Source of the DNA: a candidate division Zixibacteria bacterium SM23_81
GTDB lineage: Bacteria > SM23-81
DNA: 6,146 nt
Assembly: GCA_001304015.1 (NCBI GenBank)
Contig: LJUY01000090.1
Span: forward strand, 1-6,146
Reading direction: 5' to 3'
The notes beneath the pieces were generated by a model, which was given only the letters and a program-made list of their open reading frames with translations, did no database searches and was not told the DNA's origin. A program made the translations under genes and the position numbers. This document shows, piece by piece, positions 417-4,608 of this stretch; position 1 is the stretch's first letter, and each line of letters starts with the position of its first letter.

Positions 417-1076
417 TCAACGGAACAACATCTTAATCTTAGACCAAGTAGATCTCTCGGCCACGGGAGCACTTTGGTTAGAGGCCCCCGGAGTGGGGTG
501 AGAGAAGGCCGCGAAATCGGCCGCCGGGTCGTCTGTGTCCCTCCCGTTGGGTTTCCGGCCCAAGCTAGAGCCACTGGGGACGATGGCCGCCCCCCCACTT
601 CCCATCTCCCCACCATCGCCGTACCACATGGCGTCTATATCCCTCTGCCCATCCGCCGAAAGGTGAATATCATCTCCGAATTGGTCGAAGAGCAGCTGCG
701 GGCATTCTCGGCCATATTCGAGAACCTGGGTTCCTGTGGGCACGGTCCAATAGTTGGCAAAGCAATTTCCATCGTGGTCCTTGCTATCGTCTAGATCGTT
801 GACCAATAGCAGATACCCGCCAGCAGAAATGCGAGTATCCATTGGAAAAATCAGTTCACGGCTCTTGATGCTGCCCTCCAGGGGATGATTGGTCAGCACC
901 CAGCCGCCGATGTTCACATCCTCTGGCCCGGGATTGAACAGCTCGACCCACTGAAGGTCATCGCCGTCATCACCCTCAGGGTGATACATCACCTCGTTGA
1001 TCACCACATTGGCGTGACAAAAGCCAGCGGCAAAAAACATGCTGGCTATAGGCAACAGAAGAAGAAACCTTTTCAT
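417..1076 (-). CDS. Secreted single lamin-tail-domain (LTD) protein
   Basis: This encodes 219 residues with a Sec-type signal peptide: MKRF, a hydrophobic core (4-18), and likely cleavage after Cys-His-Ala at 22. The rest is one LTD, an immunoglobulin-like beta fold found in nuclear lamins and many exported bacterial proteins. It opens with VVINEVMYHP (24-33), continues with QWVELFNPG (42-50) and the GGWVLTN strand (57-63), and closes with HPTPGASN (193-200), the usual end motif of the domain. No nuclease, protease or anchor domain is attached; only a 19-residue basic tail follows. The mature part has two Cys (105, 125), which could form a disulfide, and an acidic loop (94-104) that might bind cations. 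An in-frame GTG at 1088 is possible, but it overlaps GAGGAG (1086-1081), so ATG 1076 is preferred despite a 4-nt spacer. The gene is flanked by its own promoter and terminator. Its molecular role is unknown; a surface or envelope role is inferred. Confidence 0.9.
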   Translation of the reverse strand: MKRFLLLLPIASMFFAAGFCHANVVINEVMYHPEGDDGDDLQWVELFNPGPEDVNIGGWVLTNHPLEGSIKSRELIFPMDTRISAGGYLLLVNDLDDSKDHDGNCFANYWTVPTGTQVLEYGRECPQLLFDQFGDDIHLSADGQRDIDAMWYGDGGEMGSGGAAIVPSGSSLGRKPNGRDTDDPAADFAAFSHPTPGASNQSAPVAERSTWSKIKMLFR

Positions 1077-1129
1077 AATTCTCCTCACCCCCCGGGATAT
1101 ATCTCCATTCTTAATCTCGAAGGTGTTAA

Positions 1130-2769: not shown

Positions 2770-4608
2770 TCACGAGTCATCACGTCTCCGCTCACCGAGG
2801 AGAACGATATCTCGCAAAGACTCTTTGTTCTTGGCAGCCATCCACCTGTCTTCAAAGTGAGGACTTTGAACGATCTGAGCGATGGCAGCCAGAGCCCGAA
2901 GATGCAGGTTACGCTCGTCTCGGGTGCCAACCAAAACGAAAACGATGTGCACCGACGGAGCTCTTTCGGAAAAGGCGATGCCCTCCCTACAGCGGGCCAT
3001 GAGTACGGCGAAGTTGTGTTCTCCCTCAATGATCACATGGGGTATGGCCAGATTCGGAGTGATCACCGTGCTGCTCTCTTTCTCCCTGGCCAAAAGCGCC
3101 TGAAAAAGTGCCATCCAATCTGTCTCTAGCTTGGCGGACATGGCCTTTGCAGATAGCGCAAAGAACTGCTCAGCAGAAATGCTCTTCTCAATATCCAATA
3201 TGTCGCCCTCTTCGATCATCTGGTCGAAGCGGTCCTTGACGATCTCGTCTCTCTCGCGGACGATTTCCTTCAACTCGGACTCCAGCGAGCCGCTGACCAG
3301 CTCCCTGGCTGTGATTCTCTCAATGAGATGAAGCAGCGCATATTCCTTCACAGCTCTGAAGCGACCGTATAACAGAAAAACACAGAGGCCGCCGAGAATC
3401 AAGAAGGCGCTCATCAGCAGAGCTTCCCCTCCCATCTCCAGGATCAAGAATCCAAAACCAACGATGCCCATGACTTGTATCCACGGATATAAGGGCGTCT
3501 TGAAACGGGGCTGATAATTGACCAGTCGGCTTTCTCTGAGAATGATGATGGAAAGGTTGGCCAAAAGGTAGGTGAGAATGAGGATGGTCGAGGCTGCCTT
3601 GATGAGCACATCCAGTTTCAGAACCAAGGAGAGGGCCACGAAAGTCCCAGTCACCAGCAGAGCGACATGGGGTGTGCCGAATCGAGCACTTACTCTGCCA
3701 ATACACGTGGGCAATAGGCCATCCCGTGACGAGGCCATCAAATAGCGAGAAGCTGCCATTATACCGGCGTTGGCCGTGGTCACGAAAGCTAAAATGGCCG
3801 CCAGGCTGAGCAGGAAGCCACCCCAAGAACCCATGAACACATGGGCAGCATCGGAAATGGGCGTGAGGGAATGGTCGAGGGCAGCGCTGCCTAGAACGCC
3901 GGTGGTCACAAACACCATAAGCGTGTAGAGAACGCTCACAATTAGGAGTGAAAGGATCAGGCCCAACGGGATAACGCGCCCGGGGTTTTTGCCCTCCTCA
4001 GCCATGCTGGCCACCTTGAGGAGGCCGCCATAGGACACGAACACAAAACCCGCCGTGGAGAATATGGCTCCCAGACCATAAGGAGCAAAGGGCTCAAAAT
4101 GACGAATATTCACGGCAGGAAGGCCTTTGAGGATAAAAAGAGACATGCTGATCAGCAATCCGGCTACCAGGATCACTTGAAATCGACCTGCTTCCTTCAC
4201 GCCGATCAGGTTGATGCCCACAAAAAGTGCACATAGGCTCATGGCTAAAAGGTGGATATCGACATCGATGAGGGCTACCGTAAAGGCGGCCATGCCCACC
4301 AGGGCAAAGGCGCTCTTCAACGAAAGGGAAAACCAGCTCAATAATCCGGCCACGGTTCCTACGGCTGGGCCCAATCCGCGGGTGATAAAGAAATAATCCC
4401 CGCCTGCTCTTGGCATGGCGGTGGCCAGCTCTGCGATGCTCAACATCCCGGTGAGGGCGAAAAGCCCAGCCAGAAAATAAGAAAGCACTACGGCAGGGCC
4501 TGCCTGGGCATGGGCAAGACCAGGCAGTATGAAAATACCAGAGCTGATCATCGCTCCTGAGGCGATGCTGAAGACATCGCTTAAGCCCAGTGCTTTACGC
4601 AACTTCAT
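2770..4608 (-). CDS. APC-superfamily amino acid permease fused to a C-terminal PTS EIIA type-2 domain
   Basis: This 612-residue fusion has a permease part (1-415) with about twelve hydrophobic segments. It opens LGLSDVFSIASGAMISSGIFILPG, the broken first helix with the GxxxxxG backbone site where APC carriers bind the substrate amino group. EEGKNPGRVIP (204-214) is another family hallmark. Residues 416-475 form a charged, probably helical cytoplasmic linker rich in Glu and Arg. Residues 476-605 match PTS EIIA of the fructose/mannitol/PtsN class: ESSTVITPNLAIPH (511-524) places the phosphorylatable His at 524, and a second conserved His is at 569 in NLHLRALAAIAQIV. In classical PTS this His takes phosphate from HPr and passes it to EIIB. 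Here it more likely regulates uptake. The transported substrate is unknown. The SD AGGAG (4626-4622) is 13 nt from the ATG, unusually far, but a stop lies two codons upstream in frame. No frameshift is visible across the junction. Confidence 0.93.
   Translation of the reverse strand: MKLRKALGLSDVFSIASGAMISSGIFILPGLAHAQAGPAVVLSYFLAGLFALTGMLSIAELATAMPRAGGDYFFITRGLGPAVGTVAGLLSWFSLSLKSAFALVGMAAFTVALIDVDIHLLAMSLCALFVGINLIGVKEAGRFQVILVAGLLISMSLFILKGLPAVNIRHFEPFAPYGLGAIFSTAGFVFVSYGGLLKVASMAEEGKNPGRVIPLGLILSLLIVSVLYTLMVFVTTGVLGSAALDHSLTPISDAAHVFMGSWGGFLLSLAAILAFVTTANAGIMAASRYLMASSRDGLLPTCIGRVSARFGTPHVALLVTGTFVALSLVLKLDVLIKAASTILILTYLLANLSIIILRESRLVNYQPRFKTPLYPWIQVMGIVGFGFLILEMGGEALLMSAFLILGGLCVFLLYGRFRAVKEYALLHLIERITARELVSGSLESELKEIVRERDEIVKDRFDQMIEEGDILDIEKSISAEQFFALSAKAMSAKLETDWMALFQALLAREKESSTVITPNLAIPHVIIEGEHNFAVLMARCREGIAFSERAPSVHIVFVLVGTRDERNLHLRALAAIAQIVQSPHFEDRWMAAKNKESLRDIVLLGERRRDDS

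Follow-up and report, generated by a model that had tools for sequence, protein, structure and literature searches.

The minus-strand gene at positions 2770 to 4608 of the window (the whole 6,146-nucleotide stretch of DNA analysed here) encodes an APC/CAT-type amino-acid carrier which bears, in the same chain, a putative regulatory domain that descends from a PtsN-like EIIA. In other proteins the EIIA domain is a phosphate receiver in the cell's sugar-signalling relay. We consider it fairly probable that this EIIA acts as a tethered regulator and that HPr-dependent phosphorylation at His524 would alter how it contacts the carrier; the uptake of amino acids is probably adjusted to the cell's energy state.

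The fusion gene and its two domains

The features of the gene were located as follows.

2770..4608, minus strand: APC permease-EIIA fusion gene, 612 aa, stop codon at 2770-2772
3361..4608, minus strand: APC carrier domain with 12 TM segments, spanning residues 1-416; among solved structures GkApcT (6f34/5oqt) is closest, with a Z of about 44
3175..3363, minus strand: linker, residues 416-478, with helices at 424-433 and 441-453 and the signature E445-L446 ... R453-D454
2803..3174, minus strand: EIIA type-2 (PtsN-like) domain, residues 479-602
3037..3039, minus strand: His524 (CAT) of AIPH, predicted phosphorylation site
2902..2904, minus strand: His569 (CAT), second active-site His
2842..2844, minus strand: Trp589, candidate docking residue, near-invariant in fusions
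2782..2790, minus strand: C-terminal R607-x-R609, nearly invariant in fusions

The first-pass annotation had described a single uninterrupted frame joining an APC carrier to a type-2 EIIA, and this is borne out by an ORF that runs from an ATG at 4608 to 2770 with zero internal stops and by matches to both Pfam families. AA_permease_2 (PF13520) matched residues 7-389 (E 5e-45, 154.5 bits), and the suggested Pfam check of the C-terminus gave a clear match of residues 479-602 to PTS_EIIA_2 (PF00359, the PtsN/Mtl/Fru type), with 79.5 bits against a curated cut-off of 27. The sequencing error at the junction that had been feared was excluded, the architecture recurring in about 80 loci from unrelated assemblies and on a second contig of the host. 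The full-length chain was modelled by AlphaFold2 with a mean pLDDT of 89.6 and a pTM of 0.87.

The carrier domain belongs to the APC superfamily by its PF13520 profile, its APC fold and the GxxxSSG motif of TM1, read here as GAMISSG; within APC it is of the CAT/GkApcT type. It superimposes on 6f34/5oqt over 414 residues with an rmsd of about 2 A and 28% identity. The score against TIGR00909 (2A0306 amino acid transporter subfamily) was 240.6 bits for a cut-off of 556.8, and by this measure the carrier is related but falls outside the curated subfamily. The TM3 lysine K98 is invariant in the carriers of 63 aligned fusions, the set used for conservation, and in them hydrophobic residues occupy the positions aligned with the TM5 Lys region of GkApcT (VAIKVAV); the cation-coupling site of the fusion carriers is possibly different from that of GkApcT.

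The phosphorylatable His524 that had been reported in AIPH is present, in the context LAIPHV. The second His was also found at position 569 as claimed, but its diagnostic value did not hold, a tyrosine occupying this position in several stand-alone EIIAs which bear the first His; the same tyrosine weakens the paired loss of both His as proof of a phospho-relay. The best sequence and fold matches of the EIIA half are PtsN/EIIA-Ntr structures, and the top match of the half modelled alone was 1a6j (PtsN/EIIA-Ntr, target TM 0.80), followed at lower scores by the cytoplasmic domains of Band 3, AE2 and NDCBE. The PtsN equivalog TIGR01419 gave 40.8 bits for a cut-off of 138.7, and the fused EIIA would at most work like PtsN, its score placing it outside the PtsN orthologues. 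The linker had block-mean confidences of 77-87 in the whole-chain model, while those of its first 40 residues dropped to 56-67 when the carrier was left out, a modelled difference that is compatible with packing on the carrier, short of proof.

A flavodoxin/WrbA-like gene (2168-2752, also on the minus strand) follows just downstream of the fusion gene and probably starts at an ATG after AGGAGG, about 120 bases beyond the fusion stop. The two genes may share one transcript; their pairing is not among the recurring neighbours at other fusion loci, and no conserved operon partner was found across these loci. Further along the window, a small protein (417-1088, minus strand) combines a Lamin Tail Domain (Pfam) with a signal-like N-terminal stretch.

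Distribution and conservation of the fusion

A homologue scan with one genome per species found 80 loci, most of them spanning the query end to end, with a mostly collinear architecture from residue 1 to about 609. Fusions were found in Omnitrophota, Planctomycetota, Cloacimonadota, Fusobacteriota, Spirochaetota, deltaproteobacteria, Actinomycetota and Thermoplasmatota; each of the four genomes searched in the host phylum gave one or more matches at E <= 1e-20, and in the host itself a further fusion lies on a different contig (L005). The scattered occurrence foreseen by the first-pass annotation was thus confirmed, whereas the notion of a mere oddity gave way to a widespread family of about 80 loci in many bacterial phyla and in Thermoplasmata. 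In an unrooted tree of the permease part only, the Thermoplasmata form one supported group amid bacterial fusions; this placement suggests that the Thermoplasmata acquired their fusions from bacteria by transfer.

Several related arrangements were also seen. Fusion genes occur as tandem pairs at L038:5923-9762 and L123:2515-6308, and a more distant APC-EIIA protein (L104:1273-3345) has an extra TrkA_C domain C-terminal to EIIA. EIIA_2 is fused to Na/H exchangers at L003:1480-3306, L034:9128-10906 and L118:1965-4136, and N-terminally to a CitMHS carrier at L119:728-2746; fusion of a carrier with EIIA has arisen in several carrier families.

Five C-terminal residues, E445, L446, R539, F585 and W589, are invariant in the 63 aligned fusions. 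We then compared 83 fusions with 15 EIIA rows of stand-alone length, two of which are fusion fragments, leaving 13 true stand-alones. The comparison showed that W589 is present in 80/80 readable fusions (a Cys was read in one fragmentary row, L102) and in 0/13 true stand-alone EIIAs, while R539 and F585 are common in both. As aligned, the fusion-specific set consists of the linker residues E445-L446 ... R453-D454, W589 and the C-terminal R607/R609. Because the linker, W589 and the RxR are specific to fusions, we take them as the likely interface with the carrier.

His524 was kept in 68/83 fusions and in all stand-alone EIIAs. It was lost in at least four lineages which retained the EIIA domain, being replaced by Ser in five Thermoplasmata, Asn at three Actinomycetota loci, Asp in five deltaproteobacterial proteins and Glu in two Desulfacinum proteins; in the Bacillota protein L051 the His is present and the motif degraded. 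When 50 genomes were surveyed for EI and HPr, the active site was lost or degraded in 8/8 genomes without EI, HPr or a non-fusion EIIA_2 (Thermoplasmata, Actinomycetota and L051), and in these eight EIIA_2 was found only in frames of fusion length. Six deltaproteobacterial genomes with EI and HPr carry a His-less fusion (Asp or Glu). Five MAGs without EI and HPr matches keep both His; since each has 3-7 EIIA domains, contigs are likely missing from them. The association of His524 with the presence of a PTS gave a Fisher p of 0.0035 over related rows, and a tree-based pair test had too few independent pairs to reach significance.

Judged from the alignment, the phospho-His is not the most conserved feature of the family. 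Since the fusion-specific residues are near-invariant whereas at least four lineages no longer have His524, phosphorylation apparently cannot be the only function of the fused EIIA, and the pattern suggests a second, phosphate-independent use of the domain. It is somewhat unlikely, in our judgement, that this use is the main one, with EIIA serving chiefly for structure or assembly (docking, folding, dimer formation) like that of Band 3/SLC4 and with phosphorylation ancestral and secondary. Such a role would agree with an invariant set which does not include His524, with the retention of the domain after loss of the His, and with the matches of the EIIA model to SLC4 cytoplasmic domains, a resemblance in fold that a review of SLC4 carriers also remarks on (PMC4664831). 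However, a purely structural role would need neither His524 nor its AIPH surroundings, which persist in 68 of the 83 fusions across great sequence distance, and the losses are confined to PTS-less genomes or to one group of related lineages.

The Asp and Glu of the PTS-bearing lineages could mimic the phosphorylated state, a suggestion based on one or two evolutionary events. An extension of this idea, which we hold to be unlikely, is that of a docking-type gate in which an ancestral phospho-switch was frozen in opposite ways, Ser or Asn being never phosphorylated where no PTS is present and Asp or Glu being phosphate-like in PTS-bearing deltaproteobacteria. If true, these proteins would amount to naturally occurring locked mutants of a single regulatory switch, and the EIIA-like cytoplasmic domain of Band 3 would have a counterpart in prokaryotes.

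The host phosphotransferase system and the proposed mechanism

The host genome encodes HPr, Enzyme I and HPr kinase, the HPr gene (site LGLHARPAA) directly preceding that of EI; a genome lacking EI or HPr, which the first-pass annotation had named as a ground for refutation, is thus not the case here. The search for a sugar PTS covered PTS_EIIC and EIIA-Man (mannose-type EIIC/EIID and the EIIB families lay outside it) and gave no match to either in the 92.6%-complete assembly, and a sugar-transporting PTS was set aside. Five EIIA_2 domains were found in the host: those of the two APC fusions, that of the L003 Na/H-exchanger fusion, that of L001, whose gene adjoins a Na/H exchanger gene, and that of one stand-alone gene. 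Because HPr, EI and HPr kinase are present without EIIC or EIIA-Man, and four of the five EIIA domains are part of a transporter or encoded next to one, the host PTS is probably regulatory and acts on carriers. The gene content also upholds the earlier preference for a regulatory over a sugar-phosphorylating role, and the host is probably able to phosphorylate the fused EIIA.

The same combination of HPr, EI and HPr kinase with no EIIC to use the phosphate would suit a phosphate reservoir or relay, or an HPr titrator, by which the permease would inform the PTS of amino-acid flux, as a sensor and not a target. We regard this as quite improbable, as no partner is seen beside the fusion gene, the varying neighbours at other loci give no sign of a dedicated downstream partner, and His-less lineages share the same architecture. 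That the domain has decayed, or that the fusion arose by chance or in assembly and has no function, can be practically dismissed: the fused EIIA scores lower in Pfam (83 bits) than the host's two stand-alone EIIA genes (111-123 bits), but the same junction in about 80 homologous loci of many phyla, the two host copies and the strong conservation of fusion-specific residues refute it, and a fusion made by chance or sequencing error is ruled out.

For the phospho-switch that we favour, we infer phosphotransfer, docking and regulation of uptake as follows. The EIIA domain would lie on the cytoplasmic face, held by the conserved linker and the fusion-specific surface, and the regulatory PTS of the host would pass phosphate from PEP to His524. 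The phosphorylated EIIA would contact the carrier differently, which would change the rate or direction of transport. In lineages without His524, the domain would work phosphate-free, either modulating the carrier in a fixed way or helping in assembly.

This phospho-switch is supported by the EIIA match with its AIPH, the PtsN/EIIA-Ntr fold, the HPr, EI and HPr kinase of the host in the absence of PTS_EIIC and EIIA-Man matches, the link of four of the five host EIIA domains to transporters, the retention of His524 in most fusions and the lost or degraded active site in all eight genomes without EI, HPr or a non-fusion EIIA_2, as well as by the same-chain precedent of LacS-IIA and the precedents of PtsN-YcgO contact and PTS-Ntr effects on ABC uptake. 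Against it count the most conserved residues of the family, which are not the phospho-site, the six PTS-bearing deltaproteobacterial genomes with Asp or Glu fusions, as well as the five His-bearing MAGs scored without EI and HPr, and the association of His524 with a PTS, which falls short of significance once corrected for the tree.

If the phospho-switch is real, PTS phosphorylation would directly set amino-acid uptake in many uncultured phyla, and a regulatory PTS without a sugar permease would have a clear job. Cultured members of the family have His (Propionigenium maris), Asp (Dethiosulfatarculus sandiegensis) or Glu (Desulfacinum infernum) at the switch site, which would allow EIIA control of carriers to be studied in a single covalently linked protein.

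Comparison with known systems

The function of these proteins had been called little studied, and we likewise found no study, functional or other, of APC-EIIA fusions in the accessible papers searched (subscription papers and TCDB lay outside the scope). A carrier with a fused EIIA is already known as a kind from LacS; as far as this literature shows, the APC-EIIA type-2 combination, its spread, its fusion signature and its natural His-less variants are functionally undescribed.

LacS of Streptococcus thermophilus, a GPH-family lactose carrier with a C-terminal IIA-Glc, shares with the fusion a secondary carrier and a C-terminal EIIA in one chain; once HPr(His~P) has phosphorylated LacS-IIA, this domain engages its carrier (PMC10703360). 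LacS differs in its carrier superfamily, its Glc-type EIIA and its sugar substrate; the fusion has APC and type-2 EIIA domains, which place it outside the LacS type, and an amino-acid substrate. By their domains the two follow the same logic with a separate origin.

The GkApcT and CAT/SLC7 amino-acid carriers share the fold of the carrier domain of the fusion; the GkApcT chain, unlike the fusion, has no EIIA domain. PtsN/EIIA-Ntr, which acts on TrkA, YcgO and KdpD in E. coli and on ABC uptake in Rhizobium, has the same EIIA fold and active-site motif. It regulates the transporters YcgO and TrkA by contact (PMC11808508, PMC13104625), YcgO being inhibited by unphosphorylated PtsN (PMC11808508), and PTS-Ntr affects amino-acid ABC uptake (PMC3665714). 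PtsN is stand-alone and soluble, whereas the fused EIIA is tethered to one carrier and has fusion-specific residues. The cytoplasmic domain of Band 3/SLC4 resembles the fused EIIA in fold, as an EIIA-like domain on a carrier, without PTS phosphorylation; it is found in animals and is N-terminal to an SLC4 carrier, whereas the fused EIIA is C-terminal to an APC carrier. The fusion family may serve as a model of the route by which an EIIA fold turns into a carrier domain without phosphorylation, of which Band 3 is an example.
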